Source: Desulfurispirillum indicum S5 (GTDB taxonomy: Bacteria > Chrysiogenota > Chrysiogenetes > Chrysiogenales > Chrysiogenaceae). From it: 64,000 bases of DNA. The position numbers and the translations under genes are program-made. Of the stretch, positions 16,478 through 35,270 are shown piece by piece. Each line of letters opens with the position of its first letter. The stretch's first letter is position 1. Where the stretch lies: contig NC_014836.1 of NCBI RefSeq assembly GCF_000177635.2, positions 1,097,501 to 1,161,500 on the forward strand. The letters run 5' to 3'. The notes beneath the pieces are model-generated. The model searched no databases, was not told the DNA's origin, and worked only from the letters and a program-made list of their open reading frames with translations.

Positions 16478-16569
16478 CTTTCGCCACCTACATGCCTGGA
16501 AAAATTCCTGAAAGACCTATCACCTCGGAATTCTTGTACTCTTTTCCCGGACTTATAAAAACAATACGA

Positions 16570-16598
16570 TTAAACTGTACGCATGTCTGGGGTATGAT
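16570..16598 (+). promoter_or_regulatory. Candidate promoter of the cas6-csm operon
   Basis: TTAAAC (16570-16575) and TATGAT (16593-16598) are 17 bases apart; the -10 is good, the -35 weak. It lies about 65 bases before the cas6 start. Confidence 0.45.
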
Positions 16599-16662
16599 AC
16601 TTCTGTTCAGGGAAGAGTATTGTATGCTAAAAAATCAATACCGTTACGTTGGAGTGATAAAC

Positions 16663-17484
16663 ATGGAAATCGTAACATTGCTTGCGTGTTTAAAGGCAAA
16701 ACAGAACAGCATCCTCCCCCAATACAAATTCTCCACCCTGCGTGGAGCCCTTGGCCACGGTTTGCGCCGGGTTATCTGCATCAAGCGACGCGCACAATGC
16801 CAGGATTGTTCGCTTCTGCAGCATTGTCCCTACACAACGATTTTCGACAACAGTGCCACGCAAACTGAGTTCCTGCCGCTGGTCTGTTACAGTGGTAACG
16901 AGCAGATGGAATTCCACGCAGGCGACACGCTCTCTGTGCATATTACGCTCATGGGTCACGCCGCTGCGCACAGCGCCTATACCCTGCTGGCCCTGCAGGA
17001 AATGGCTTCCCAGGGCCTTGGCAAAGACCGCCAGCCATTTGCTATTGGTCACCCGCCTCCTCTGCCCCAGGTTCAGCATCTATATGACACTCCACTCCCA
17101 GCAGGCTCCTACCGCCTGCGCCTGCAAAGCCCCTTGCGCAGCAAAACCGGCAGCAGGCTTACCACAGACCTTGGCTTGCAAAAAATACTTCACCTTGCCC
17201 AGCGCCGCCTGCAAAGCCTGCACGAACACAGCGGGCAGCCACTTCCCCCATTACTGTCAGATACCCCGCAAGCTCAGGAAATTTCCCGAAATCTCCACTG
17301 GCTGGATATTGGGCGATACTCCAATCGTCAGGCCACCAAAATGAAGCTGGGGGGCTTTGTTGGCACCATGGAATTCAGCGACCCAACAGGCGCAGCCGCC
17401 ACAATGTTCAACGCTGCAGCAAAAATACACATCGGAAAACAGACCACATTTGGATACGGGAAAATTGAACTGGAGGGAATATGA
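16663..17484 (+). CDS. cas6: CRISPR pre-crRNA endoribonuclease Cas6
   Basis: About 274 residues. The N-terminal ferredoxin-like part has FSTLRGALGHGLRRVICIK and a cysteine cluster (CQDCSLLQHC) seen in one Cas6 branch. The C-terminal RAMP domain ends with KQTTFGYGKIELEGI, the glycine-rich loop region. It should cut the repeat RNA at the base of the hairpin described under the array, leaving the tag ATTGAGAC. Start at ATG 16663 chosen for GGAGTG eight bases upstream and for alignment with the first strand; a longer start at 16624 is possible. The stop overlaps the cas10 start by 4 bases. Confidence 0.88.
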   Translation: MEIVTLLACLKAKQNSILPQYKFSTLRGALGHGLRRVICIKRRAQCQDCSLLQHCPYTTIFDNSATQTEFLPLVCYSGNEQMEFHAGDTLSVHITLMGHAAAHSAYTLLALQEMASQGLGKDRQPFAIGHPPPLPQVQHLYDTPLPAGSYRLRLQSPLRSKTGSRLTTDLGLQKILHLAQRRLQSLHEHSGQPLPPLLSDTPQAQEISRNLHWLDIGRYSNRQATKMKLGGFVGTMEFSDPTGAAATMFNAAAKIHIGKQTTFGYGKIELEGI

Positions 17485-20249
17485 GTGACACATCGCCCCT
17501 GAGCCGTGCCTACACCATAGCCACAGCCGGACTACTCCACGACATTGGCAAGTTTCTGCAGCGCAGCGGTAAAAAACTGCTGAAAGCAGATGACTACAAC
17601 TATGCCTACGGCACCAAGCACGGTTACGGCCACGTGCACGCCGCCTTCACCGGGCTTTTCTTTGATGGAAAATTCACTTTTGGCAGTGCTGATAACCAGG
17701 AAATCAAGGCATCTTACGATGGTGTGCTGCAGGCATTCCCGTCGGTTGTGCAGCATGATAAAGAAACATCCATGGCCAATCTCGCCGCCAGCCACCACAA
17801 AGTGGGCGACCAGTCCCACCCCTTGCAGTGGATTATTGCCGAAGCCGACCGCCTGGCCAGTGGTTTTGAGCGGGACAGATCAGAGGAGCAATACAACGCC
17901 TACGCCCAAGCATTGGCCAAGGAAGAGCAAAAGTCAAAACACTCAAACACCCACATGCGCAACATCTTTGCCGACATTAAACTCAGTGCAAAGGAAGACC
18001 AGCAGCCATCAGACGATAATTCAAACAAGCCAACGGAGAAAGCCCTTCACTACCCCTTTGCACCCTTGGAGCCATCGATTCTACCCATAAACAATTCCAC
18101 TGTGGAAGAATCACAAGCAGCCAAGGATTACACCCGCCTGTTGACGGGATTTGCGGAGGGACTGACCGCAATCGCCCGTCGCGTGGGGGCGAATAAAAAT
18201 GACAAAAGTTCCTCCCTCGCTAACGCCTACCTGGCCCTGGCCAGTCTTATGGAGCGATACTGCTGGAGTATCCCTTCGGCAACCGTCAGTTATGAAAATG
18301 GGAAGTTTACCCCGACCCCCACTAATATCTCCCTCTACGACCACAGCCGCGCCACCAGCGCCATAGCCACCGCCCTGTACGCCTGGCACCGGGAAAAGGA
18401 TGACATAGACCACGCCAAAGCGGGCAATCTGACACTGATCAGCAGCGTAAAGGATAGAAGCAAGGAACAGAAATTCTGTTTCATTCAGGGCGACTTCAGC
18501 GGCATCCAGCACTTCATCTTTGATGCCGGTGGAGAATCCAACAAGTTTGCCGCCAAGATACTGCGCGCCAAGTCCTTCTACGTGAGCATGGCCACCGAAG
18601 CCGCCGCCCATGCCATCTGCCACGAACTGAACCTGCCCCTCAGCTCCATTATCATGAACGCCGGTGGCAAGTTCACTATCCTGGCCGCCAACACCAGCGA
18701 CCTGCAAGCAGCCGTGGGAAGGGTTAAAACCACTATCAACGAGCACTTTCACAAACTGACCTTCGGCCAGACCCGCTTTAACATCGCCACCTTGTGCTTT
18801 CAGCCTGAGCGTTTGGTAATGCGCGAATATGCCTTGCTGATGGGGGATCTGGCCCATGCCCTGGAGTGCGAAAAACTGCGGCCACAGATCAGCGAACCCG
18901 TTTTTAAGGAGTACCTTTCCAGCCGCAAAAGCCGCGAGCTGTGCACCATCTGCGGCAAACACTGGGGGGATGAGACCAAATATGGCACTATCTGCCCCCA
19001 CTGCAACCGCTTTCGCCGCCTTGGGGAAGCACTGGTATCAGAAGAGGTCAAAGACGGCGAAGCTCGCCGCAACTACTTCCACATCCAATACTCTGAAGAC
19101 CAGAAAGAGGGCGATTGGACCTATCCTCTCTTTGGTCAGTGGCACCTGGCCTTTGGCAAAAGCCCCGACCTCAGCGCGCCCACATACAATATCGACCGCC
19201 AGAGTACATTCAGCGGCTTTGCCCACAAACACCTGGCCAATTATGTGCCTCGTTGGCGAAATGACGGGGAATGGGATGAACTACGCTACAAGGGAATCAG
19301 CAAGGAACGCTTGGAAGGTATTGAACTAAATGTTAACGCCACTAAAACCTTTGCCCATATTGGCGCTGATGCCCTGCACGAAGAAGAAAACGGCAAACTG
19401 CGGGGAGTAGCCCATCTGGGTGTGCTCAAGGCCGACGTGGATCACCTGGGTCAGATCTTCAGTCGAGGCTTTACGGTGAAGGAAAACGGCAAAGACATCA
19501 GCTACGCCAATATGTCCCGCATGTCCATGCTCTCGCGCATGCTGGACTACTTCTTCACCGGCTGGCTCCCATGGCGACTTGCCAAAAAACCAGCAGAAGG
19601 GGAAGTCGACTACCGCAGCGTTTACACCGTCTTTGCCGGAGGGGACGACCTCTTTCTCATCGGCCCCTGGAACCGCATCGTTGATCTGGCCGGGGAAATA
19701 GACCAGCACCTCCGCCAGTACACCGGAGGCAACCCCGACATTCACCTTAGCGCCGGCATCGTGCTACGCAAAGCCGCCATCCCCGTGCGCGAGATGGCCC
19801 GCGATGCCGAGGAAGCACTGGATGCCGCCAAGCATGGAGAAGGCCCTGAAGCTGGTAAAAATCGCAACCGCATTACCGTTTTTGGTCAGACTGTGACGTG
19901 GGAGGAATACAAGGAACTTATGCGCAGTGGCGATGCATTAAAGCAACGTACCCAAACGATGGAAAGTGAACTCTCCACCCAATATCTCTACGGACTGTTG
20001 AAGTTTAGCCAGGATGCTGCCACTGCGACAACATTCCCTGAAAGTCCAGAAGAAGTGAATGCCTGGATGGAGGCAGCCAAGTGGAGAGCCCGGCTGAAAT
20101 ATCGGCATCAAAGATACTTTGTGGAGAAGAGCAAAAAGGAGGAGACAAAACTCGAAGCGATGGAATTTGTGTTTAAGGATATTCAAGAAAAAACCAGTAA
20201 AATGAGCATCCCCCTTTCGCGGCTGCTCTACGACCGACGCAGGAGGTAG
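17481..20249 (+). CDS. cas10: Type III-A Cas10 (Csm1)
   Basis: 922 residues, the large subunit of the Csm complex. An N-terminal HD nuclease domain has LLHDIGKF (H20 D21) and SHHKVGD plus ADRLASGFER. A first Palm region lies around 330-430, a zinc ribbon at C488, C491, C505 and C508, and the second Palm domain has GGDD at about 720-723. HD implies target-activated single-strand DNA cutting; GGDD implies synthesis of cyclic oligoadenylates from ATP. Both motifs are intact, so the signalling branch should work. Second gene of the csm operon, overlapping cas6. Confidence 0.95.
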   Translation: MSDTSPLSRAYTIATAGLLHDIGKFLQRSGKKLLKADDYNYAYGTKHGYGHVHAAFTGLFFDGKFTFGSADNQEIKASYDGVLQAFPSVVQHDKETSMANLAASHHKVGDQSHPLQWIIAEADRLASGFERDRSEEQYNAYAQALAKEEQKSKHSNTHMRNIFADIKLSAKEDQQPSDDNSNKPTEKALHYPFAPLEPSILPINNSTVEESQAAKDYTRLLTGFAEGLTAIARRVGANKNDKSSSLANAYLALASLMERYCWSIPSATVSYENGKFTPTPTNISLYDHSRATSAIATALYAWHREKDDIDHAKAGNLTLISSVKDRSKEQKFCFIQGDFSGIQHFIFDAGGESNKFAAKILRAKSFYVSMATEAAAHAICHELNLPLSSIIMNAGGKFTILAANTSDLQAAVGRVKTTINEHFHKLTFGQTRFNIATLCFQPERLVMREYALLMGDLAHALECEKLRPQISEPVFKEYLSSRKSRELCTICGKHWGDETKYGTICPHCNRFRRLGEALVSEEVKDGEARRNYFHIQYSEDQKEGDWTYPLFGQWHLAFGKSPDLSAPTYNIDRQSTFSGFAHKHLANYVPRWRNDGEWDELRYKGISKERLEGIELNVNATKTFAHIGADALHEEENGKLRGVAHLGVLKADVDHLGQIFSRGFTVKENGKDISYANMSRMSMLSRMLDYFFTGWLPWRLAKKPAEGEVDYRSVYTVFAGGDDLFLIGPWNRIVDLAGEIDQHLRQYTGGNPDIHLSAGIVLRKAAIPVREMARDAEEALDAAKHGEGPEAGKNRNRITVFGQTVTWEEYKELMRSGDALKQRTQTMESELSTQYLYGLLKFSQDAATATTFPESPEEVNAWMEAAKWRARLKYRHQRYFVEKSKKEETKLEAMEFVFKDIQEKTSKMSIPLSRLLYDRRRR

Positions 20250-20251
20250 AT

Positions 20252-20635
20252 ATGACGATAGCAACTATTCGGGAATACGATGATCCAGAGAAAAGAGTGA
20301 AACTTTTTTCGGACCGTGCAGAGGAAACGTTCAAAGCAATGTCTGGTAGAAATCTTACGTTTACTCAGTTGCGCCGCTTCTACAATCAAATACTGAGCTA
20401 CCGGGAGCAAATTGGTGCCGATAAACCGTATGAAGAGCTATTGCCATATATAGCGATGGTAAAGGCCAAGGCTGAGTACGCATACAAACGTGATAAAATC
20501 AATGATGGCTTTAAGCGATTTATTCAAAGCAATATTGATCAGCTTTGCGATAGCCGCAAGGTAGATGACTTTTTTATCTTCTGCTCCCTTTTTGAGGCAG
20601 TAGTGGCTTACAGCAAAGGAAACCTGAGTAATTGA
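20252..20635 (+). CDS. csm2: Csm2, small subunit of type III-A complex
   Basis: A 127-residue helical protein with the Csm2 pattern LTFTQLRRFYNQILSYRE and PYIAMVKAKAEYAYKRD. It lines the crRNA/target duplex in the complex. AGGAGG sits five bases before the ATG. It is visibly more AT-rich than the flanking chromosomal genes, as are the following csm genes, which suggests acquisition. Confidence 0.92.
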   Translation: MTIATIREYDDPEKRVKLFSDRAEETFKAMSGRNLTFTQLRRFYNQILSYREQIGADKPYEELLPYIAMVKAKAEYAYKRDKINDGFKRFIQSNIDQLCDSRKVDDFFIFCSLFEAVVAYSKGNLSN

Positions 20636-20648
20636 AATGGAGGGAAAT

Positions 20649-21386
20649 ATGCAAATTAAAGAAATACGCAAAATAGAATGCTCATTGAAAGTAATTACGG
20701 GCCTTCACATTGGCGGAGGCAACGATGAAATCAAAATAGGCGGTGTGGATAACGTTGTCATTCGTGATCCCTTGACCAGTATACCCTATATACCCGGTTC
20801 ATCGCTTAAGGGTAAGATTCGTTCGCTGGCAGAGTGGACGACTGGCTGCGTTGATACTGGTGAAGGAAATGCCTTTTATATTAAGGGAAAAGCCAGTGAC
20901 GCTCCATCGAATGCGCTGCAAATCGTAAAAATTTTTGGCAATGGCAAACCAGATGGCCTTGAGGATGACAACCATACCGTGCTGCAGACACGCGTTGCCA
21001 TTTCCGACGCTTTTATGACACCAGAGAGTCAGAAGCTGTTGCTTGAAAAACTCGGCTCCTATACTGAAACCAAGTATGAAGTGAGCATTAATCGCTTGCA
21101 GGGCAAAGTTGGCGGCGGCGGTCCCCGCCAGATTGAGCGTGTACCCGCAGGGGCGGAATTCACCTTTGAAGCCATTTACAAAGTATTCCATAAGTCCGAT
21201 GATGCTGCGTTTAATAGTGCCGAAGAAACAGCATTTCAGAGTTTTCTGGAATACATCGAACTTCTTAACCATGACGGATTGGGCGGTGGTTCTTCCCGTG
21301 GCAATGGCAGGGTTGAAGTACAGTGGGCGGATTCGCAGGCAAGGTATTCTGTCGCATGGCCAAAGACTGACCAGAAAGACGGGTGA
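20649..21386 (+). CDS. csm3: Csm3, backbone RAMP and target-RNA nuclease
   Basis: About 245 residues, single RAMP domain. THe block GLHIGGG, GGVDNVVIRDP, YIPGSSLKGKIRSLAEW is the Csm3 signature, and the aspartate at about position 34 (GGVD) matches the residue that cuts target RNA every six bases. A thumb region holds RLQGKVGGGGPRQIERVPAGAEF. I start at ATG 20649 because GGAGGG is four bases upstream; the ATG at 20637 overlaps that site. Near the end, GLGGGSSRGNGRVE is the glycine-rich RAMP loop. Confidence 0.94.
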   Translation: MQIKEIRKIECSLKVITGLHIGGGNDEIKIGGVDNVVIRDPLTSIPYIPGSSLKGKIRSLAEWTTGCVDTGEGNAFYIKGKASDAPSNALQIVKIFGNGKPDGLEDDNHTVLQTRVAISDAFMTPESQKLLLEKLGSYTETKYEVSINRLQGKVGGGGPRQIERVPAGAEFTFEAIYKVFHKSDDAAFNSAEETAFQSFLEYIELLNHDGLGGGSSRGNGRVEVQWADSQARYSVAWPKTDQKDG

Positions 21387-21389
21387 ACC

Positions 21390-22367
21390 ATGGAATCGCG
21401 ACGCATTCGCATTCTGCCCCAAAGCTCATTTGTTACCCCCCTGCAATCTGATACCCTGTTTGGCCAGTTCTGCTGGTTGTACCGGGATGTGCATGGAAAC
21501 GAGGCACTTGAGGCGCTCTTGAGCGATATGTCCAACCCTCCACTGGTATTTTCTGATGGCTTTCCGGCCGGATTTCTGCCCCGCCCCATCCTGAAGCCAG
21601 TAAAACTGCCAACACAAATGCAGGATGGCATGGGCAAGGAGTATAAGAAATTTGCCTTTTTCCCATTGGAGGTAATCCAGAAGCTTCAGGGTAATCTGAC
21701 CGAAGGTGCCATTGCCACTGAATATCTGCAAAATCGCCAACAATGGCCAAAACCAGCTTCGCCAACAAAAAGTATGATGACAAAAAATGCCCTGAATTCT
21801 TTCAGTCACTCCACAGCTGGCGAATCGGGACAGCTCTATGCCAGCAATGAACTCTTTTATCCCCATGGGTCACAACTGGACTTGTATGTCAGGTTCGACT
21901 CTCAGAAGATTTCTGGAGAGACTCTTCAAGAAATCATTGAACTGATGGGGATGCAGGGATATGGAAAGGATGCTTCCACCGGACGTGGGCGCTATAAAGT
22001 TTCAGACTGGTGCGAAGCTACCATGCTGCAAAGTGCGCCAGCAGAAACCAACGCCTTTGTGGCTCTTTCTTCCTGTGTTGCCTGCTCCAGTGCCGACCCT
22101 GCCTATGGCAAGGTATTCACAAAGTTCGCCAAACATGGAGGGGGGCTGGCCGCGAGAGGCAAACACATGAAAAACCCCGTGGTGCTCTACCAGCCGGGGA
22201 GTACATTCGGAATTATACAGCCCCGTGACGTATACGGCAGGATGCTTGCCAATCTGGTAAGCGATGAAGTAGGTGGTAAACACGTGCACAATGCCTGCAC
22301 CATTGCTCTTCCATGTCACATCCCCTCTTCCGAGCTTCCACCCAAAACAGGAGGCAATAATGCGTAA
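21390..22367 (+). CDS. csm4: Csm4, crRNA-tag-binding RAMP
   Basis: 325 residues. The opening RIRILPQSSFVTPLQSDTLFG followed by FSDGFPAGFLPRPILKP is diagnostic of Csm4, which caps the 5' tag of the crRNA and contacts Cas10. GYGKDASTGRGRY is the glycine-rich RAMP loop. It ends inside the start of csm5 (8-base overlap), which implies coupled translation. Confidence 0.93.
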   Translation: MESRRIRILPQSSFVTPLQSDTLFGQFCWLYRDVHGNEALEALLSDMSNPPLVFSDGFPAGFLPRPILKPVKLPTQMQDGMGKEYKKFAFFPLEVIQKLQGNLTEGAIATEYLQNRQQWPKPASPTKSMMTKNALNSFSHSTAGESGQLYASNELFYPHGSQLDLYVRFDSQKISGETLQEIIELMGMQGYGKDASTGRGRYKVSDWCEATMLQSAPAETNAFVALSSCVACSSADPAYGKVFTKFAKHGGGLAARGKHMKNPVVLYQPGSTFGIIQPRDVYGRMLANLVSDEVGGKHVHNACTIALPCHIPSSELPPKTGGNNA

Positions 22368-23886
22368 AGATACCCAGTTCTGCCTGCTGGAAGTGCTGAC
22401 ACCCATTCACATTGGCAGTGGTGAATACTACGAGCCCATGGACTATTTCCCGAAAGAGAAAGCTCTGCACCTGTTTGACCACAGCTCTTTCCAAAGCTAC
22501 CTGAAGCAGATTGGCAAAAGCGATATTTTTTTCGATCATTGCCGCAAAAGCCGTTATGACGACCTTCTGCGCTTTATTGATGAACACGCTCCCAAGTGTG
22601 AAGCGGTGAATGCGCACATTCCCTTATCAGATGCGACACAAAAAGTTTTTGGACAAAATCGCCCGCTGTTCGGCAAGAATGACGAAATACTCCAGGTGGT
22701 AAAAGCTGGCGCTTACAGTGAACCCATAATCCCTGGCTCTTCCGTGAAAGGAGCCCTCCGCACATTAGTACTTAACTCAATATTGGGTCAAAATGAGTTT
22801 CCCGGAGATGAGCTTCGTTTTCTCGCTGAAAAAAACCTGCGTGATAGTGACAAGCAGGTTGCCTTCGACTTTTTTCGTGACTTTCGTGTAAGCGATTTTT
22901 CACCTATTGACGCACAATCTCAGATTGATATACCCAATCGCCTCTCCGATAAACGAAAATTGGATGGTGAATTCGAAGACGTGGACTGGAGATTGACAAC
23001 ACAAGGCCGCCTTGCCATGACAGAATTCATCACCAGCGGCCAGTTTATCGGCGAAATCAGTTTTGGCCACAACACCCTGTATAAAGCACCATGGAGCAAT
23101 TTCGAAAAACTCTGGGAGGACTTGCTGGCATCATCCAATGCCTATCTTGAAGCCGAAGATGACAGATTTATGCAAGCAATCCAGAATCATTCCAGAATTC
23201 GGTTGAATAGCAGTGGCCAAAAGCCTGCCTCTTCAGTTCCACAAATTCAGCAGTTACTTGAGCACGACCCGCCCGCTGGCAGTGACGAGCTGCTCCTGAA
23301 AATTGGCCGTCATACTGGCGGGAGAACGAAAATGTTGGATCGATATGAGGATAGGAGAAGAGAAAACATCTCCAGTCATTTCCAGTCATCTATCTGGTTA
23401 AGTTCAACCGGAATACCCCTTGGCTGGGTTAAGATTCGTCTGCTGAGCGATGATGAATGGCAGGACTACCAGCGTCAGTGTGCCGAAATGGCTTCGCAGC
23501 GGCAACAGGCATTTTTGCGAAGGCAGAAAATAAGGGATGAACAACAGCAGCAGCAGGAAGCCGCTCAACAAGCTGCCGTGAAACGTCAGCAACAACGCGA
23601 AGCCGAAGCTGCCGCCAAAGCCGCTGAAGCAGAAAAACTGGCCAGCATGGGCGAGGTGGAGCGTACATTGTACGAACTGACGCAGATAACTTTACCCGAC
23701 GCCCGTAACAACAAACTCATGGAACTATGGTTAAAAATCGACGGCTACACTACCGAGGAACAACAGACCATTGCCCTTGCCTGTAAACAGGAGTTTATCG
23801 CCACCAAGAAGTGGTCGGGAAAATTGAAAGAAAAACAGCAGGCGAAAGTCGACAAGGTCAAGCGGATCCTTGGGGAAACAGATTAG
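22360..23886 (+). CDS. csm5: Csm5, 3'-end RAMP with glutamine-rich tail
   Basis: About 508 residues, start at ATG 22360 with AGGAGG six bases upstream. The RAMP core has EVLTPIHIGSGEYYEP and PIIPGSSVKGALRTLVLNS. Csm5 caps the 3' side of the complex and helps crRNA maturation by recruiting cellular nucleases. The last roughly 140 residues are unusual: a long Gln/Ala/Glu-rich segment (about 360-430) predicted to be a coiled coil, then a small helical domain. Many Csm5 proteins lack this. Confidence 0.9.
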   Translation: MRKDTQFCLLEVLTPIHIGSGEYYEPMDYFPKEKALHLFDHSSFQSYLKQIGKSDIFFDHCRKSRYDDLLRFIDEHAPKCEAVNAHIPLSDATQKVFGQNRPLFGKNDEILQVVKAGAYSEPIIPGSSVKGALRTLVLNSILGQNEFPGDELRFLAEKNLRDSDKQVAFDFFRDFRVSDFSPIDAQSQIDIPNRLSDKRKLDGEFEDVDWRLTTQGRLAMTEFITSGQFIGEISFGHNTLYKAPWSNFEKLWEDLLASSNAYLEAEDDRFMQAIQNHSRIRLNSSGQKPASSVPQIQQLLEHDPPAGSDELLLKIGRHTGGRTKMLDRYEDRRRENISSHFQSSIWLSSTGIPLGWVKIRLLSDDEWQDYQRQCAEMASQRQQAFLRRQKIRDEQQQQQEAAQQAAVKRQQQREAEAAAKAAEAEKLASMGEVERTLYELTQITLPDARNNKLMELWLKIDGYTTEEQQTIALACKQEFIATKKWSGKLKEKQQAKVDKVKRILGETD

Positions 23887-23892
23887 GGTAAA

Positions 23893-24291
23893 ATGGAAAC
23901 TTTCCTCTTCATGAACGACCACACCTGGGAAATGGTTGACCGAATTGGTATACTGCTGGGCATCATCATGTTCATACCCGTTGCCTGGGCCAGCATGTTG
24001 TATATCAGACGCAACTATCTGAAAAAACGACTTGTTGAAAGAGCCCTTAAACGGGCCAGTACTCACCTTGTGGCCTGTGTGGAGCTGACCGGAAAAAGTG
24101 AAATTGCCATCAGTGCCAATGACACCATACACAAGCTGAACTTGCAGGGCACGATTCTGCCCCAGCGCGAATTCCGAAGAAGTGGTGTTGAACTTGCGAA
24201 TATGGCAAAAGTGGAAAAGCTGCGCGAAGAACTGGTGCAGTTCAAAAAAGAACTGCAACTGCAAAGCCCCGAGTATATACACCTCTTTTAG
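23893..24291 (+). pseudogene. Membrane-anchored SAVED-domain protein, 5' part (split by ISL3)
   Basis: This fragment reads 132 residues: a short N-terminus, one membrane helix (about residues 17-38, GILLGIIMFIPVAWASMLYI), a basic stretch and the first part of a soluble domain with HLVACVELTGKSEIAISAND. The final G of its TAG stop is the first base of the ISL3 element. Removing the IS and one 8-base target copy lets the frame run on through 25606-25717 to a protein of about 169 residues. The restored join reads YIHLF-YSGPVAIAIMLGDIF, which looks like the C-terminal core of a SAVED domain, a sensor of cyclic oligonucleotides. Last gene of the csm operon, seven bases after csm5. I infer a membrane effector of the type III response; the family call is by eye. 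Confidence 0.7.
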
Positions 24292-25597
24292 GTTCATCCG
24301 GTTAAAGCGTACTTTGAATTATGGAGGGCCTTTATTCTGAGCTCGAAGAATTCCATATCTCTGTATCCATAGGCTTGCCTTTTGAGGGTATCAATTTTGT
24401 TGTTGATCCCCTCAAGTGGTCCTGTTGATATGGGGTGATCATACCAGTTCAGGATTCCCTCTCGGTGCTTCTCCAGCGTTTTGGCCATTTTCTTCAATCC
24501 TTTGATAGCTGATGCTTGAGCCCTGTTGATCCAGTCATCGAGGAATACCGTGGCAGTTACCTTGTCAGTTTGTTGCCATATCTGGCGGAGATCTTCTTTC
24601 ATGTAATAGGCAACCGCCAATGGTCGATTGGCCTGCAGGGCAAGTTCAAGGCGTTCATGATCACTGGTTTGCTCGCCAATGCTCTGCGGATTTTTGAGAA
24701 GCATCCAGCGAGTGCCTTTGAGAATGCTCTTGTCATGCTGACTTGTGAGCTCATGGTACAGCTCGCGGCGAATATCGGTAAGGCGTTCATTCATAAGCTT
24801 GACGACATGGAAACGATCAAACACCAACGCAGCAGATGGAAGGTGTTCGAGCACTGCCGACCGGTAAGCCGGACTCATGTCAGCAGCAACGGCTTTGATA
24901 GATGACTTGCGACGACCAAGGCGTTTCCAGAAACCATCAAGCGCTTCTGCCTGTTTGCCTGCTCCAACGTATACGACCCTGGCTGAACCAAGGTCAATGA
25001 CGAGAGTAATGAAGCCATGTTTGCGTCCTGTGTATTTCTCATCAATGGCGATATACTCAAGCCCAGCAAGTGAAGGGCTACTGTAGTGATGATGCAGATA
25101 CTGCTTGAAAATGGACTTGACCAGGTCCCAGCCTATACCAAGAAGCCGTGCTACATCAATGAGGGTCATAGCTTGGGCAAGGGAGACCACATACCGAGCA
25201 AATGCATGGGTGTAGGAACACCGTGGAGAGGCTATTTTCAGACTCACCCGCCTGACACTACCGCACTGAAGGCACTGGATGCGTGGAACGTGGACGTGCA
25301 ACCAAGTGGACTTGATCCCCAAAGGCAAACCTCGTAACCGACGAATGCTACTGCCGCGTAATATGACAGAACGGCCAAGGCACGCAGGGCAGCGAATCAG
25401 CTTTTTACGGGGCCGGACATGGAAATTGATGGTATTGCCGCAATACTCTGTGCGGATGTAATCGTAGCCAGCAAGGCCGTAGGCATGGTAAAGAACACTG
25501 GTGAGCATGGTGCTTCTCCCGGAATTATTTGGTTGTAATCCCGATAAGTGGCACCATGCTCACTTTTTTGTCAATGTATCCTCAATACGGAAGAGCC
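24291..25597. mobile_element. ISL3-family insertion sequence (1307 bp)
   Basis: Imperfect terminal repeats (GGTTCATCCGGTT at the left; GGCTCTTCCGTAT read inward from the right, 9 of 13 identical) are flanked by a perfect 8-base duplication CTCTTTTA at 24283-24290 and 25598-25605. Eight bases is the usual duplication of ISL3 elements. The perfect duplication shows a simple insertion with no later loss at the borders. Confidence 0.93.
24294..25508 (-). CDS. ISL3-family transposase
   Basis: An intact 404-residue transposase: N-terminal zinc-finger-like region (CPACLGRSVILRG, CLQCGSVRRVSLK), a helix-turn-helix, and a DDE core with IDEKYTGRKHGF (first Asp), FDRFHVVKLMNERL (second Asp) and STGPLEGINNKIDTLKRQAYG (Glu). 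GGGAG is seven bases before the ATG. A 13-base complementary pair (25501-25513 with 25551-25563) could hide the start codon in transcripts that enter from outside. Transcribed against the csm operon. Confidence 0.93.
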   Translation of the reverse strand: MLTSVLYHAYGLAGYDYIRTEYCGNTINFHVRPRKKLIRCPACLGRSVILRGSSIRRLRGLPLGIKSTWLHVHVPRIQCLQCGSVRRVSLKIASPRCSYTHAFARYVVSLAQAMTLIDVARLLGIGWDLVKSIFKQYLHHHYSSPSLAGLEYIAIDEKYTGRKHGFITLVIDLGSARVVYVGAGKQAEALDGFWKRLGRRKSSIKAVAADMSPAYRSAVLEHLPSAALVFDRFHVVKLMNERLTDIRRELYHELTSQHDKSILKGTRWMLLKNPQSIGEQTSDHERLELALQANRPLAVAYYMKEDLRQIWQQTDKVTATVFLDDWINRAQASAIKGLKKMAKTLEKHREGILNWYDHPISTGPLEGINNKIDTLKRQAYGYRDMEFFELRIKALHNSKYALTG

Positions 25598-25605
25598 CTC
25601 TTTTA

Positions 25606-25717
25606 TTCCGGGCCTGTCGCCATCGCCATAATGCTTGGCGACATCTTTGCGAACTGCAAAAATATAATTGTCTACCACCATGATCGGGGCCGATATTATC
25701 GGAGTGCCGTAATTTAG
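25606..25717 (+). pseudogene. 3' remnant of the SAVED-domain gene
   Basis: In the frame restored by excision of the ISL3 element this stretch reads YSGPVAIAIMLGDIF, then FANCKNIIVYHHD and RGRYYRSAVI to a TAG at 25715. The order (hydrophobic GP-x-A helix, then a strand ending in Y, then an aromatic tail) is the pattern of SAVED C-termini. It has no start of its own worth calling. Confidence 0.7.
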
Positions 25718-25943
25718 CCCAGGGGTTACCGTTATTGTGACAATACACTGCCAGTGATTTTCAAAAAACGTCACATAAAGACTTCGTAGGCCGTTTTCCA
25801 GGGGTTTGCGAGTTTGTAACTTGTTCTTTAACAAAAGAATATAACTCACTCGGTTATTTTTATATATATTTTATTGCATTTCTGTCCATGTTTGCGAAAA
25901 CAGCCTCTGGAATGCAGCCTGTAAAGGCATCGATGAAGGGGGT
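25718..25943 (+). promoter_or_regulatory. CRISPR leader
   Basis: A gene-free stretch of 226 bases directly before the first repeat; its right part is rich in A and T (around 25815-25880, including TTCTTTAACAAAAGAATATA). The perfect repeats start here and the degenerate one lies at the far end, so this side is the leader and should hold the array promoter and the integration signals. I cannot fix the exact promoter boxes. Confidence 0.75.
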
Positions 25944-28900
25944 GACCGAAGACCTGTCGGAAACGACGGGGATTGAGACACTTTTCTCCATATTTTGCCG
26001 AACTTTGCCTTTAAGCGACCGAAGACCTGTCGGAAACGACGGGGATTGAGACGCGTGAGCCTGTTATGCTGGGCTCTGCTTTGTTGACCGAAGACCTGTC
26101 GGAAACGACGGGGATTGAGACACATACTATGGAGTTTGAGAACTTCTTTTATTTCTGACCGAAGACCTGTCGGAAACGACGGGGATTGAGACGGCTACCC
26201 AGTCATAGTCATTAGTTGCCAACATTCTAGGACCGAAGACCTGTCGGAAACGACGGGGATTGAGACTTGGCCATAACCGTCACTTCTGAGAACATTTTCA
26301 GCCGTCGACCGAAGACCTGTCGGAAACGACGGGGATTGAGACTAAAATTTTTTGTGTATATCCCTGCACTGTTTTTTGACCGAAGACCTGTCGGAAACGA
26401 CGGGGATTGAGACGAATTTAAGGAAGTGACATATACGTCATCTTCCGGGACCGAAGACCTGTCGGAAACGACGGGGATTGAGACGACATAAACCACCTCT
26501 CAAAAATTATTTACCTGGGACCGAAGACCTGTCGGAAACGACGGGGATTGAGACCGCGACGGTTGTCGCGTTGCTGTGCTGGAGGGGCACGACCGAAGAC
26601 CTGTCGGAAACGACGGGGATTGAGACGAGAATGTCACTTTCTAGTGAATTTAAGGAAGTGACCGAAGACCTGTCGGAAACGACGGGGATTGAGACGACTT
26701 CGCAATTCCTCCTTTTGGCGAAAGGACTTGTGACCGAAGACCTGTCGGAAACGACGGGGATTGAGACACGACGGCAGTGCCGTCAGTAAGTATAACTTCT
26801 ATACGACCGAAGACCTGTCGGAAACGACGGGGATTGAGACTCACAAACTCCACCGTTGTTAATAGCGTTTACTAACTCGACCGAAGACCTGTCGGAAACG
26901 ACGGGGATTGAGACATCCTGCACTATTACCCAGCGACGACCTTGGATACGTGACCGAAGACCTGTCGGAAACGACGGGGATTGAGACTCTGCTCACAAGT
27001 TGAGCAGGCGTTCCTGCAGTACTGTGTGACCGAAGACCTGTCGGAAACGACGGGGATTGAGACTCTTACAGTCAAACTCCTTGAACATATGCTTTAACGA
27101 CCGAAGACCTGTCGGAAACGACGGGGATTGAGACCCCTTCCCTTTCAAGAAGAATGGGGCCTTCCGACGACCGAAGACCTGTCGGAAACGACGGGGATTG
27201 AGACGCAAATTGGCGTCTTGCAAATAGGCATCTTGTAAATTGACCGAAGACCTGTCGGAAACGACGGGGATTGAGACAGAGATCAAAACCTCCGGATGTT
27301 GTTTCGGAAAGTTCTCGCGACCGAAGACCTGTCGGAAACGACGGGGATTGAGACGGCTTCGCAGTTCCTCCTGGCTCCTGAAGAACTTGTGACCGAAGAC
27401 CTGTCGGAAACGACGGGGATTGAGACCAGTTTAGGGAGCTTTATAACCGGGCTGTGCGCGACCGAAGACCTGTCGGAAACGACGGGGATTGAGACTCATA
27501 GTCCTCACCCGGCTGAGGTTCGCCACCGAGACCGAAGACCTGTCGGAAACGACGGGGATTGAGACATTCCCTGCGGCAGCCCGAAAAACCAGAACCTCCT
27601 CAGACCGAAGACCTGTCGGAAACGACGGGGATTGAGACGTTCAACATAAGATTCTTGATAAGACGTTGTTTGGACCGAAGACCTGTCGGAAACGACGGGG
27701 ATTGAGACGCTTCCTCAGCTCTGCTATGATTGATTCTCGCTGACCGAAGACCTGTCGGAAACGACGGGGATTGAGACGGTTGACGGATTTACCATCAACC
27801 ATGACACATATAGGACCGAAGACCTGTCGGAAACGACGGGGATTGAGACGCCCTCGTCAGAATCGGAATTCGGCTAGTCGCCTTCGACCGAAGACCTGTC
27901 GGAAACGACGGGGATTGAGACAGCGGTGTAACCCAACTCAATGAAATGATTACGGATGACCGAAGACCTGTCGGAAACGACGGGGATTGAGACGCTGCGC
28001 GCCTGTTCCAGTCATGCATCACTCCCGACCGAAGACCTGTCGGAAACGACGGGGATTGAGACTTTGTTAACGACGCCATGGTCGCCAATAACTTCTAGAC
28101 CGAAGACCTGTCGGAAACGACGGGGATTGAGACATGAACAGGGTAACTGTATAGGCCACTAACCACGGTGACCGAAGACCTGTCGGAAACGACGGGGATT
28201 GAGACGTCAAGTATAAATCGTTTCATGCTACACCCCTTTAGACCGAAGACCTGTCGGAAACGACGGGGATTGAGACCAACTTCAGCGCAACTGCGCTGAT
28301 ATCGGCCTGGTTGACCGAAGACCTGTCGGAAACGACGGGGATTGAGACAAGCCACTAGCCACGGTGCCATATCACACGCTCCCATTGCGACCGAAGACCT
28401 GTCGGAAACGACGGGGATTGAGACGTAGGCCAGTAGGCCATTTTTAAAGGGCTGTCCTCAGACCGAAGACCTGTCGGAAACGACGGGGATTGAGACCTGC
28501 CAGTTTTTTCGTCGACCTCCTTAGTTTTGGTATCGACCGAAGACCTGTCGGAAACGACGGGGATTGAGACATACCGGACGACATAAACATCTGATATATA
28601 GTCTGGGACCGAAGACCTGTCGGAAACGACGGGGATTGAGACAACATAAATCACCTCTTGAATATATTTAACTGGGACCGAAGACCTGTCGGAAACGACG
28701 GGGATTGAGACTGGGGTTGCCATCTCCGAAGGCCAGCTTCAACGCAGACCGAAGACCTGTCGGAAACGACGGGGATTGAGACTCGGAGCCGTGCCCATAT
28801 GCTCCGAGCCAGCGCAGACCGAAGACCTGTCGGAAACGACGGGGATTGAGACGATATGTAGTCTTGAAACTTGTCTCTAAACATCATGCACGACCGAAGA

Positions 28901-29859
28901 CCTGTCGGAAACGACGGGGATTGAGACGTACCAGCAGCGTGTGATGGTGATCGTGTCGCTGCCGACCGAAGACCTGTCGGAAACGACGGGGATTGAGACC
29001 TGCCGTTGTTAAATCCACAGTAAACAGCGTTGAATGTGACCGAAGACCTGTCGGAAACGACGGGGATTGAGACGCCTCAAAGATTGCGTGTGGGGTCAGG
29101 TTGATAAGACCGAAGACCTGTCGGAAACGACGAGGATTGAGACCAAAACGACTTTACCTCTCCACTAATTCCATAAAGACCGAAGACCTGTCGGAAACGA
29201 CGGGGATTGAGACCCTTCCAGTATATCCTGGGGACGAGTGCTGTAGTGACCGAAGACCTGTCGGAAACGACGGGGATTGAGACATCTGCTGTCTCCGTAC
29301 CATCTTTTGGAGAGCCACGACCGAAGACCTGTCGGAAACGACGGGGATTGAGACACGCGACGGTTGCCACGTTACTTTTTTGAATGGGTACGACCGAAGA
29401 CCTGTCGGAAACGACGGGGATTGAGACTCAGGGTCAATAGTCGGCACGTTCATTTCAGTTACGACCGAAGACCTGTCGGAAACGACGGGGATTGAGACAG
29501 ACTTGTTGATGCCCTTAATACCCTTAATCTCTTTCGACCGAAGACCTGTCGGAAACGACGGGGATTGAGACCCCGAAGGCGATCTTCAGGGCAACCGCCT
29601 TGAGGCCGGGACCGAAGACCTGTCGGAAACGACGGGGATTGAGACGCCTTTCCAAGTTCTATTGAAACGTGGCGTTTAGTGACCGAAGACCTGTCGGAAA
29701 CGACGGGGATTGAGACAAAGCCGTTGATGATAGCAGGATAATTCGCCATTGACGACCGAAGACCTGTCGGAAACGACGGGGATTGAGACATGCTCAAGAT
29801 ATTCTTCGCACGAAACATATTCCGACCGAAGACCTGCTGGAAACAGCGGGGATTAAAAG
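25944..29859 (+). CRISPR. Type III-A CRISPR array, 55 repeats and 54 spacers
   Basis: The repeat is 36 bases, starting GACCGAAGACCTGTCGGAAA and ending CGACGGGGATTGAGAC. I counted 55 copies from 25944 to the last at 29824; spacers are 33-41 bases. Each repeat can fold as CCTGTCG-GAAA-CGACGGG, a 7-bp stem (one G-U pair) with a GAAA loop. Cas6 cleavage after the stem would leave the 8-base tag ATTGAGAC. One internal repeat (29108) has a single G-to-A change in the stem. The last repeat (29824-29859) is altered in the stem by matched changes and has lost the tag. Several spacers are relatives of each other (see findings). The short ORFs across the array are not genes. Confidence 0.99.
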
Positions 29860-29940
29860 TTGTTATTCCCGGCTGGCTTGCAAGTAGTGTAGAATGCTTG
29901 ATTTGATGTGGAATTCCTCAGAACTGTGAATGGAGGTGTC

Positions 29941-31248
29941 ATGGGAAAGTGCTGCATGGTGACCATGCTTGGTACAATTAAAGCTCCAGCTGATCTGAGC
30001 GAGCGAGCGAGTTATGCTTTGTCGGGTGAGCTGGCTAGCTGCTTTTCCCTGCATGGTTCTCAATATTCAAATACATTACCGATTATAGTTAGGCTATCGC
30101 AGGATATAGGATTCTCCTTGGTTCCCATTGCGACCAGGGAAGCTCTGCGAGTGCAAAGGGATGTTCTTGAAGCCGAGGGATTAGATTATTCATGCCTTGA
30201 AGAGGCTGTTATTATTGAAGAAGATGACTTCGAAGCCACTTTCGCGACTATTAATACCATTTTAGGGGCTGCGGATGAGGTCATTCTTGATGTCAGCCAT
30301 GGTTTTCGTCACCTGCCGATTTTGGCAACTGTCAGTATGATTATTCATAATATTACGCACAGTGAGAAAATTCGTCATATCCTGTTTGCCAAAGAGATTG
30401 ATCCGCGCAAACGCTATGAAATTATCGATTTACGAAAGTATCTGGATATTGCCAATGTGACTTATGTGCTTCACACTTTTGATCGCAATTACACGGTTGC
30501 CGCGACTGCCGCTGTTCGCGATGGGCGTTTAACTGAGCTTATTCGACTATTACAGGAGTTCTCTCGGCATATCTTAGCAAATTCTCTGAACTATCTGGTG
30601 CGTGGCAACAACTCTCTGCTGAATCAGATTCGGGAAAGGCTCCAGAGTATTTCCGATTCTGATGATACTCCAAATCAAAGCTTTGGCAGGTTGCTGGAAA
30701 GAGTTGATACTCATATCCAGAAGGTTCAGGATTGCTTGCAGCAAGAAAGAGAGTCTCTTAAATTTTACAGCCTGGCACGGTTATTGGCTGAGCGGGGATA
30801 TCTTCTTAACTCCCTGACTTTACTGCATGAGGCCATTGGGAGCTACACGCTGGAATCCATTAGTGATAAGTCTTTGCGCAGCCATAATCACTATGAGGCA
30901 ACGAAGGCTGCCCGTGATGTGTTTCTACACCCCCAGAAGTGGCACTCCACGCTTAATGACAATCGAAAAAGAAGCCTTCACCCTCTGGTTGAGAATGGTT
31001 ATAAAAACCGAAAGCTCCTTGATGAAAAGTCAGTCAGCGATTTTGCACAACTCGTCAAGGATGTTCAGGCTTTCCGTAATGATTTAGCCCATGGCAATGC
31101 GGAAAACACATATGGCGATACCTATAGTCGGATTGCAAAATTTATCAGGCGATTTGAGGAAGTCTGTATCAAACGCAACATTTTGGCTATACCGTCTGGC
31201 CTGAGTGATGCAGAGAAGCTTCAACGAGGGATGGGGACTCGCCGATGA
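29941..31248 (+). CDS. csx1: Csx1-like CARF-HEPN ribonuclease
   Basis: About 435 residues. The N-terminal CARF domain carries DVSHG (about 117-121), the DxTHG-type signature of this family, next to hydrophobic strands EVILDV and LPILATVSMI. The C-terminal half is helical and ends in a HEPN domain with RNDLAH (R379-x4-H384), the catalytic RNase motif. Such proteins bind cyclic oligoadenylate made by Cas10 and then cut RNA without sequence choice. Start at ATG 29941 with GGAGG four bases upstream. First gene after the array; its stop overlaps the next gene (ATGA). Confidence 0.9.
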   Translation: MGKCCMVTMLGTIKAPADLSERASYALSGELASCFSLHGSQYSNTLPIIVRLSQDIGFSLVPIATREALRVQRDVLEAEGLDYSCLEEAVIIEEDDFEATFATINTILGAADEVILDVSHGFRHLPILATVSMIIHNITHSEKIRHILFAKEIDPRKRYEIIDLRKYLDIANVTYVLHTFDRNYTVAATAAVRDGRLTELIRLLQEFSRHILANSLNYLVRGNNSLLNQIRERLQSISDSDDTPNQSFGRLLERVDTHIQKVQDCLQQERESLKFYSLARLLAERGYLLNSLTLLHEAIGSYTLESISDKSLRSHNHYEATKAARDVFLHPQKWHSTLNDNRKRSLHPLVENGYKNRKLLDEKSVSDFAQLVKDVQAFRNDLAHGNAENTYGDTYSRIAKFIRRFEEVCIKRNILAIPSGLSDAEKLQRGMGTRR

Positions 31249-31628
31249 AAACCCTCTACCTCCTCTTCTCCCACCGCCTCACCGCCGAGCAGGAACGCGA
31301 CGCCCGTGCAAGCCTTGGCGTGGTAAGCTTTGTGCCCCTACCACCTGAGCTGCAGCAGCTGTGGAGCAACCTGCCCCCGGAGCTGGAGGATATCCGCCCA
31401 TTGCTGGAACCCGTGAAGCAGTGGCTGACAGCCAACGCCCGTCCCGGCGACATGGCTCTGGTGACAGGTGATTTCGGTGCTACCTGGGATCTGGTGAACT
31501 TCTGCCACTCCACCGGGATTACCCCCCTCTACTCCACCAGCCGCCGGGTTGTGGCGGAGGAGCGGGATGCCGGTGGTGCCGTTGTCAAGAAGAGCCTGTT
31601 TGCCCACGTGCGTTTTCGCCGTTACTGA
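31245..31628 (+). CDS. csx20: Csx20 family protein, probable ring nuclease
   Basis: 127 residues. The start KTLYLLFSHRLTAEQERDAR and the following PLPPELQQLWSNLPPE are characteristic of the Csx20 family found in type III loci. The middle has GDMALVTGDFGATWDLVNFC, a nucleotide-binding-like turn. The family has been proposed to degrade cyclic oligoadenylates, which would switch off Csx1; this role is taken from the literature by memory. Coupled to csx1 by a 4-base overlap, which fits an effector/off-switch pair. Confidence 0.75.
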   Translation: MKTLYLLFSHRLTAEQERDARASLGVVSFVPLPPELQQLWSNLPPELEDIRPLLEPVKQWLTANARPGDMALVTGDFGATWDLVNFCHSTGITPLYSTSRRVVAEERDAGGAVVKKSLFAHVRFRRY

Positions 31629-31710
31629 GTCTTCTCAATTCAGAAATTTTCCCGAATGACTCTTCATCCACTACGGACTCCATAATCAGTGAAAACACAT
31701 GGAGGCAGCA

Positions 31711-31950
31711 ATGGTACGTCTTGATCTTGATGGCTTCCTTCCCTGGCCTCAGGATAGGGAAGGGATGGATGATTTGTTGCAATCAGTACTCGCAGAGGTG
31801 CAGCACAGCCGTGATTTGACACTTACTGGTAGTCCGCCGTCATGGCTGTCGATGCAGTTGGCCCATCATCTTGGGCAGTACCTGTCAAGTCTCTATTATG
31901 AGTGCCCAATTGCTGGGCTGGTGGAGGTTTTTGATCACAACCCTTTTTAA
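31711..31950 (+). CDS. Small Csx3-like protein
   Basis: 79 residues from ATG 31711 (GGAGG six bases upstream; an in-frame ATG at 31699 precedes that site). The layout, LDLDGFLPW, then TGSPPSWLSMQLAHHL and GLVEVFDHNPF, parallels Csx3 proteins, which have a GRGPIWL...LAH...VAVYDPRLG pattern around their active histidine. Here the GxxPxWL, LAH and VxVFD landmarks are present but the usual strand after them is missing, so it may be a shortened or diverged form. Csx3 is a ring nuclease, so a second off-switch is possible. The resemblance is by eye and weak. Confidence 0.4.
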   Translation: MVRLDLDGFLPWPQDREGMDDLLQSVLAEVQHSRDLTLTGSPPSWLSMQLAHHLGQYLSSLYYECPIAGLVEVFDHNPF

Positions 31951-31973
31951 TATACCCCGATGAGGATGGCAAA

Positions 31974-32975
31974 ATGGCAACAGTCGTTGTTGACGAGCAG
32001 GGTTCCCATATTCAGTACAAGACCAACCAGCTGATTATTACATCGAAAGATGACAATCTGAGCTGGAGTATTCCTAAGATGAATATTGAGCGGTTGCTGA
32101 TTGTTGGGCGCACCACCTTGGCTCAAAGTGCCATGGACTTCTTGCTTGACGCAAGTATTCCCACACATTTTGCTACTACGTCGGGGTGCTATAAAGGGCA
32201 ACTTTGCGGAATGGAAGGAAAAAATGTTTTTGCCCGTATGAAGCAATACGAGCGCTATGCCAATCCAGCGTATCGCAATGGGCTGGCCAGGGTAATTGTG
32301 CGGCAGAAGGTGAATAACCTGCGTTATTTTCTGGCTAAGCATAATCGCTACCATGAGAATCGTGTTATTGAGGATGCGATTGTCCAGATCAAGGCGACAT
32401 TGCAGGGCTTGGACAAAGCCACCAACACAGACGAAATTCGTGGTATTGAGGGAGCCTGTGCTGCCACATACTTTCAGGCGTTTGGGTCGATTTTTGAAGA
32501 CAGAGAATTTCAATTTCGCAAAAGAAGCCGCCGTCCGCCCCTGGATCCCATCAATGCTATGTTGAGTCTTGGATACACAGTGCTCCTCGCGGAGGTCATT
32601 ACAGCATTACAGAGTACTGGGCTTGATGCCTATGTGGGCTATCTGCACAGTGCTGAATATGGGCGTCCTTCACTTGCCTGCGATTTACAGGAAGAGTTTC
32701 GCTTTGTGGTGGATGAGCTTGTGGTCAAACTGGTGAATTTGAAACAGGTGAAAGCTGAGAGCTTTGAATACCAGGAGGATGGTGCAGTTATACTCACAGA
32801 GCCTGCGCGGGAAGTCTTTTACCGGGCTTTCGAACGTAAGATTCGAGGAGGGACGATATACGACGGCAAACGACATTCTTACCGGCGTATTATTCAGCAG
32901 CAGGCGCAAAAGCTCAGCAAGTCTCTGTTTGAAAGCGAACCCTCTTACCAGCCATTTGTGCGGCCTCAGAACTGA
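31974..32975 (+). CDS. cas1: CRISPR integrase Cas1
   Basis: 333 residues. The metal-binding residues are in place: E159 (GIEGACAATYF), H225 (GYLHSAEYGRPSLACDL), D237 and E240 (DLQEEFR). Cas1 with Cas2 inserts new spacers next to the leader. No reverse transcriptase domain is fused. It is the fourth gene of the post-array group, 23 bases after the small Csx3-like gene. Confidence 0.97.
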   Translation: MATVVVDEQGSHIQYKTNQLIITSKDDNLSWSIPKMNIERLLIVGRTTLAQSAMDFLLDASIPTHFATTSGCYKGQLCGMEGKNVFARMKQYERYANPAYRNGLARVIVRQKVNNLRYFLAKHNRYHENRVIEDAIVQIKATLQGLDKATNTDEIRGIEGACAATYFQAFGSIFEDREFQFRKRSRRPPLDPINAMLSLGYTVLLAEVITALQSTGLDAYVGYLHSAEYGRPSLACDLQEEFRFVVDELVVKLVNLKQVKAESFEYQEDGAVILTEPAREVFYRAFERKIRGGTIYDGKRHSYRRIIQQQAQKLSKSLFESEPSYQPFVRPQN

Positions 32976-32978
32976 ATC

Positions 32979-33254
32979 ATGATTGTTATTATCGCTTACG
33001 ATATACCCAGTACGAAAAGGCGCACACGCCTGCACAAGGCATTAAAAGGCTATGGTGTGAATGCTCAGCGCAGTGTTTTCGAGTGTGACGTGCAGCCCGA
33101 GCAGATGAAAGGGTTACTGACGATGCTGGAGTTTATGATTGACCCCAGTGAAGACGACTTGCGGGTGTATCCGTTATGTAAAGGATGCCAGGAAAAGGTG
33201 ATGGGTATGGGTATTGGAGATTTTAATCGCAGTGAGGAGATTATTGTAATTTGA
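32979..33254 (+). CDS. cas2: CRISPR adaptation protein Cas2
   Basis: 91 residues starting MIVIIAYDIPSTKRRTRL with the conserved D8; RSVFECDV and the C-terminal strand EEIIVI complete the ferredoxin-like fold. It bridges two Cas1 dimers. Three bases after cas1. Confidence 0.97.
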   Translation: MIVIIAYDIPSTKRRTRLHKALKGYGVNAQRSVFECDVQPEQMKGLLTMLEFMIDPSEDDLRVYPLCKGCQEKVMGMGIGDFNRSEEIIVI

Positions 33255-34322: not shown

Positions 34323-34388
34323 TATAACGTTGTCATGCCAGCTCAGGGGTCACAGGATTTTTCCTGAGTGTTTTCACAAGGAGCCTCC

Positions 34389-35270
34389 ATGTCTTCACGT
34401 AATCTCATTATTCAGTCGGGCAATATCTATCAGCCTATGACCATGGGGATTTCCATGGTGCGTGAACGCTGTGAAATCGGCGAGGTATTTGTGTTGACCA
34501 CTTTCTCGCTGGTTCCCGAGATTGACAAACTGCTGAATCGCTTTTTTCCGGATATTCCGCGCCGGATATTTGGCATGTACGTCAGCGCCAAGGGCAGTGC
34601 TTCCGATCAGCGGGAGTACCGCAAGAATGTGGAAAAGGTGTTGCGTCTGGCGGGCGAGAACCCCATCGCCATGATTGCCAGCGGCACCAACTGGATGACC
34701 TGGCACTTTGCCCGGTACCTGGGAGATATGGAGGCGTATACGGTGCGCACCCGCAAGGAGTTTCAGGAGAAATCCTTCCTGCCGGAGAGGGATGCGGTGA
34801 CCGTTGACCCGGCGGGCAATGTGATTCACCACGAGGGGCAGATCTGCGAACTGGTTCCGCTGAACGCCGACTGCCCCAGGCCGCGGCTGGATATTCAGGG
34901 GCGTACCATCCATTTCCTGGATCATCATATAGAGCTGCCTATGCAGCAGGCGGCCATGTATGCCTTCATGGTGGAAAACGGTTGCTATCTGGATATGCGC
35001 GAAGACTACACTCAGGCTTTCAATGATTTCTGCGAGCGCTCATCCCAGTTTGATACGTACCGGGCCATGCTTGATGATGGGAAATCCTTCTATGAGCGTT
35101 TCAAGCAGAATGTTTCCAAAATCAACAGCCATCTGCGCCAGTGCGAAGAGATTGTGCGGCTGCACCTGAGTATAGAAAAGGATGAAGATTCGCCGGTGGA
35201 TGTGTACCGTCTCGGCGTGCTTTCAGACCGCGTGGTGGAGGGCTGGGAGCTGGAGGAGCCGGAAGCGTGA
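34389..35270 (+). CDS. Putative CARF-winged helix regulator
   Basis: About 293 residues from ATG 34389 (GGAG five bases upstream). The N-terminal half reads like a Rossmann-type CARF domain: first strand NLIIQSGNIYQPM, then EVFVLTT, and NPIAMIASGTNWMTWHFARYL where CARF proteins have their second ligand loop. After about residue 165 a winged-helix-like segment follows (GRTIHFLDHHIELPMQQAAMYAFMVEN recalls the wing of CARF-wHTH proteins), then a helical tail. I infer a regulator that senses cyclic oligoadenylate. Alternative: a CARF ring nuclease of the NE0113 group with an extension. Not certain by eye. Confidence 0.55.
   Translation: MSSRNLIIQSGNIYQPMTMGISMVRERCEIGEVFVLTTFSLVPEIDKLLNRFFPDIPRRIFGMYVSAKGSASDQREYRKNVEKVLRLAGENPIAMIASGTNWMTWHFARYLGDMEAYTVRTRKEFQEKSFLPERDAVTVDPAGNVIHHEGQICELVPLNADCPRPRLDIQGRTIHFLDHHIELPMQQAAMYAFMVENGCYLDMREDYTQAFNDFCERSSQFDTYRAMLDDGKSFYERFKQNVSKINSHLRQCEEIVRLHLSIEKDEDSPVDVYRLGVLSDRVVEGWELEEPEA

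Follow-up and report, generated by a model that had tools for sequence, protein, structure and literature searches.

Terminal repeats that differ from the rest of their array have been described in Escherichia and Salmonella (PMC2886076), in S. agalactiae (PMC4466440) and in a review (PMC8047081), where they appear as stable and lineage-specific. Degeneration at the 3′ end is the published norm for such repeats (PMC2886076, PMC8047081), and previous work has shown them to be retained and ancestral (PMC8047081, PMC4466440). Compensatory covariation between the active repeats of different arrays is also well known, with two-sided pair changes that preserve the repeat hairpin (Kunin et al. 2007, PMC1896005).

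Here, we describe the last repeat of a CRISPR array in Desulfurispirillum indicum S5, located in a stretch of 64,000 nucleotides that was analysed as a whole and is called the window in the following. Like the degenerate terminal repeats known from elsewhere, this repeat differs from the other copies and is decayed at its 3′ end, but it adds a complete alternative stem, which is the standard one in a sister genus. The change is two-sided and preserves the hairpin, as in the stems compared by Kunin et al.; however, their versions occur in arrays of different organisms, whereas here both are found within one array. A last repeat that bears a sister genus's stem combines two known phenomena, compensatory stem changes and terminal decay, and a brief literature search found no published description of it.

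The type III-A locus and its repeat array

The window contains a type III-A CRISPR-Cas locus with cas6, cas1 and cas2 beside the repeat array. The effector genes cas10/csm1 and csm2-csm5 match TIGR02578, TIGR01870, TIGR02582, TIGR01903 and TIGR01899 above the cut-offs. A Cas6 search revealed orthologues in the sister genus (genome G002, 67% identity) and in the more distant genome G021 (46%). The features of the locus are as follows.

16492-17484, + strand: cas6, processing endonuclease
17481-23886, + strand: cas10/csm1, csm2, csm3, csm4 and csm5, the type III-A effector genes
24294-25508, - strand: ISL3 transposase
25715-25943, + strand: leader region, its end alignable to the leader of the G002 array
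25944-29789, + strand: the other 54 repeats and 53 spacers; 53 repeats identical, one with G26A
29108-29143, + strand: internal repeat 45, with G26A
29790-29823, + strand: last spacer, presumably the oldest; its crRNA 3′ side adjoins the terminal repeat
29824-29859, + strand: terminal, leader-distal repeat with a CTG-GAAA-CAG stem tip and the decayed tag ATTAAAAG
29860-29931, + strand: trailer, from the array to the CARF gene; no terminator found in a terminator scan
29908-31248, + strand: gene of a CARF-type protein (TIGR02221 below its cut-off, DxTHG motif above); G002 orthologue 69% identical
31245-33254, + strand: csx20, csx3-like, cas1 and cas2

The array (25944-29859, + strand) comprises 55 repeats of GACCGAAGACCTGTCGGAAACGACGGGGATTGAGAC, each 36 nt long, and is the sole one of its type in the genome of 2,928,377 bases. 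Identical copies account for 53/55 repeats, while repeat 45 shows one change and the last repeat seven; there are no intermediates, just two sharply different types. Transcription of the array from the + strand presupposes that the tag end is the 3′ side. According to the orientation of the tag, and to the leader similarity found at the opposite side, the last repeat occupies the leader-distal position. In repeat 45, the change G26A breaks the stem pair C11-G26 (C11-A26) and is uncompensated. As this copy shows, one uncompensated stem break is tolerated within the array.

Some spacers resemble each other, namely those at 26696-26731 and 27355-27390, at 26414-26448 and 26627-26659, and at 26485-26518 and 28643-28675 (for example, GACTTCGCAATTCCTCC and GGCTTCGCAGTTCCTCC, with the common stretch GAATTTAAGGAAGT). 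Identical regions of related invaders may have been sampled more than once. Besides that, a small SAVED-domain protein gene (23893-24303 and 25580-25714) is split by the ISL3 insertion, its second half extending up to the CRISPR leader. Downstream of cas2, a 300-aa ORF (34368-35270) has a weak CARF-type match (PADLOC CARF5, E 1.9e-4).

Hairpin and tag of the last repeat

The last repeat reads GACCGAAGACCTGCTGGAAACAGCGGGGATTAAAAG and differs from the usual one by seven changes (T14C, C15T, G22A, A23G, G32A, G34A and C36G). The four changes T14C, C15T, G22A and A23G amount to two double-sided swaps at adjacent stem pairs, from T-A to C-G and from C-G to T-A, and all seven stem pairs remain standard, the T12-G25 wobble included. 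The predicted hairpin energy is -13.4 kcal/mol for the usual repeat compared to -13.9 for the last one. In the 8-nt tag, three positions are altered. The original prediction had described both the hairpin kept intact by paired changes and the altered tag, and its letters and coordinates proved correct. With four random stem changes, only about 1-8% of cases would retain every pair, the figure varying with transition bias; the stem pattern is therefore not one of random decay. The decay of the tag needs no special explanation, since 3′ degeneration is the norm for terminal repeats (PMC2886076, PMC8047081).

Related arrays

The array of G002 holds 23 repeats of GACCAAAGACCTGCTGGAATCAGCGGGGATTGAGAC, with the last copy ending in G instead of C. 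All 23 carry CCTGCTG...CAGCGGG, exactly the stem of the last repeat in the window, which hence matches the active repeat of a relative. The two loci share their order (cas6-csm1-5, array, CARF gene, then genes in the csx20, cas1 and cas2 positions), the repeat family and an alignable leader (alignment score 46, shuffle maximum 30), and orthology is demonstrated for Cas6 and the CARF protein, with coding homology of the latter beginning at 29932, 73 bases past the last repeat. In contrast, the active repeat of G002 differs from that of the window at 6/36 sites. Because the trailers following the last repeat could not be aligned between the two genera, orthology of the terminal repeats is judged by locus order and leader only.

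The G002 locus (L071) additionally carries a CARF-type (Cas_NE0113)-adenosine deaminase fusion gene (Cad1-like, L071:7226-9409) between csm5 and the SAVED gene, an intact copy of the latter (170 aa, L071 9423-9935) and a ccdAB toxin-antitoxin pair between array and CARF gene (L071:12090-12634). For the Cad1-like fusion gene, no matching stretch was found in the window.

The repeat of G021, ATGTTAAGACCTGTCGTAATGGACGGGGATTGAGAC, shares the letters TC...GA with the active repeat of the window. Its terminal repeat also shows TC...GA, with G21A and G34A in the last copy, and the penultimate copy has A23G; the G021 leader gave no alignment to the window leader. The last repeats of the window and G021 have G34A in common, those of the window and G002 have C36G. 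The latter was considered as a shared derived trait and downgraded, as it is also present in an unrelated array (in G098).

Sites 5 and 20 distinguish the two genera, and here the last repeat has the letters of its own lineage (G5 and A20). An import of this repeat from a G002-like genome is ruled out by these two letters. With both sites left aside, the changes of the last repeat relative to the sister-type stem are clustered at the 3′ end: all three differences from a G002-like ancestor fall within the last 5 bases (chance 0.0014, post hoc). Among the eight aligned repeats of the three genomes, two-sided changes are confined to pairs 14-23 and 15-22, and T12-G25 is kept in 8/8.

A search with the repeat pattern, covering 51 genomes of the phylum and a broader set of 290, recovered this family in the window genome, G002 and G021 only. 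Two more single hits in other genomes were rejected as arrays of the same type. A stem-type pattern scan of 84,980 species genomes returned a single chance hit, with no array present. Viral contigs yielded nothing, and plasmids a single weak match attributable to chance. In more distant Cas6 relatives, the repeats were unrelated or weakly paired. The nearest described family is Rfam CRISPR-DR8 (RF01321), with a match of 24 bits that lies below the gathering score of 39. Turned to the crRNA strand, it reads AAGACCCGcT...AgAGGGGATTGAGAC and resembles the window repeat in tag, GAAGACC block and hairpin position; at the two swapped pairs it has cT...Ag, in weakly conserved letters. Its loop and its lower stem are different. 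In other genomes, DR8 hits yielded no alignable stems outside the three known arrays.

As a check, the original prediction had proposed to compare the terminal repeats of related arrays, and the outcome is divided. The stems are kept in G002 and G021; across 11 altered terminal-repeat candidates with known orientation, stems are fully paired in 6/11 and show at least one broken pair in 5/11 (G233, G097, G179, G062 and G251). This survey is descriptive, as it covers a range of CRISPR types and includes weakly matching ends, some of which may be false array ends, and it gives no support for a general rule of terminal stem retention.

Origin of the last repeat

Based on these comparisons, we consider it likely, with a probability of about two in three, that the last repeat preserves, as a fossil, an earlier repeat version of the same array and is not an independently re-evolved hairpin. 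The polarity assumed earlier, with the common repeat as the start and the last repeat as the derived form, is probably backwards. As G002 has the same stem in 23/23 repeats, the covariation most likely took place in the active repeat, and the last repeat was left behind. The original prediction had proposed selection for Cas6 recognition of the last repeat, which agrees with the intact stem and the decayed tag, but a last repeat that changed and was then repaired is not the best reading of a stem found throughout the sister array.

According to the fossil model, the common ancestor with G002 would have possessed repeats with the CCTGCTG...CAGCGGG stem. In the lineage of the window, the leader-end repeat, which is the template for each new repeat, would have switched two adjacent stem pairs to TCG...CGA, presumably retaining pairing via G-U wobbles under selection for Cas6 recognition. 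The gain of new spacers and the loss of old ones would then have filled the array with the TCG...CGA repeat. Located at the far end and preserved when spacers are deleted, the terminal repeat would never have been recopied and would thus have kept the old stem. Its last bases would have drifted, with a tag that was never part of a useful crRNA.

An alternative explanation could be that the last repeat began as TCG...CGA and changed at both pairs, with selection for Cas6 cutting keeping the compensated versions while the useless tag drifted; the benefit would be either release of the last crRNA or separation of the array from a downstream transcript. As expected under such selection, every one of the four stem changes is compensated and the tag has decayed. 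Given that a terminator scan of the stretch up to the CARF gene was negative, a cut at the last repeat could be of importance. Stems are also kept in the terminal repeats of G002, G021, G195 and G283, and the TC...GA of G021 allows this state as ancestral. Nevertheless, we regard this explanation as unlikely, since it needs convergence on the exact stem of the whole array of the sister genus. If every one of the seven pairs could change, independent compensation would arrive at this stem in 0.1-0.5% of cases, although convergence is likelier than this figure implies because only pairs 14-23 and 15-22 vary two-sidedly in the family. Further points against it are the stem break tolerated in repeat 45, the five broken stems of the survey and the finding that in 0/10 other arrays a changed terminal stem is kept fully paired by two-sided changes; the terminal stem of G002 would need change or replacement, too. 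An independent change within the last repeat may nevertheless have occurred, as the outgroup states differ, with TC...GA in G021 and cT...Ag in DR8, of which the latter points to the fossil polarity (a weak match, below the gathering score); given G021, the active stem of the window could be the older state, and the fossil model would then need a return to TC...GA.

Array replacement or gene conversion, by which a leader-end part with TCG...CGA was acquired from a different array or strain and became attached to the last repeat already present, would fit the lack of intermediates between the two repeat types, and G021 does have TC...GA. However, there is one array of this type in the genome, leader and neighbouring genes resemble G002 and not G021, and G5 and A20, common to the active and last repeats, argue for one lineage, which makes such an event very improbable. 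Quasi-palindrome mutagenesis can yield compact block changes in both arms of a hairpin. It might thus have produced the compact block changed in both arms here, if a strand switch in the hairpin copied the two-base change from arm to arm in one step, and pairing would then reflect DNA mechanics and not selection. Templating would tend to mend the T12-G25 mismatch in the palindromic DNA, yet this is kept in all aligned repeats, and the identity with the sister stem would be left unexplained; we consider this origin extremely unlikely.

If the last repeat is indeed a fossil, last repeats would record former repeat versions and could be used to polarise the joint evolution of repeat and Cas6, and both stem versions would be preserved side by side in one array. 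Covariation within an array should consequently be taken with caution and not be read as selection on the odd copy. The two hairpins also represent a natural substrate pair for the question of whether Cas6 reads the two stem pairs by sequence or by shape only.

The last hairpin and Cas6 cutting

Compared with the presumed ancestral state, the stem of the last repeat appears to be unaltered, with changes in the final 5 bases. Judged from the letters, this is consistent with, though no proof of, a requirement for cutting by Cas6, which may cleave the last repeat at present. A pattern scan from the array to the CARF gene found no terminator. The last hairpin might serve as a processing boundary, with the array and CARF-csx20-csx3-cas1-cas2 forming one transcript in which a Cas6 cut separates crRNA from mRNA; we consider this role distinctly unlikely. 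In that case, the hairpin would be under selection even though the tag is not, and the present Cas6 would still have to read both stem versions.

A different pattern was seen in the type I-C array of G179 (L190), where the apparent last repeat has an unchanged 3′ half and has lost the 5′ arm, opposite to the usual decay at the 3′ end.
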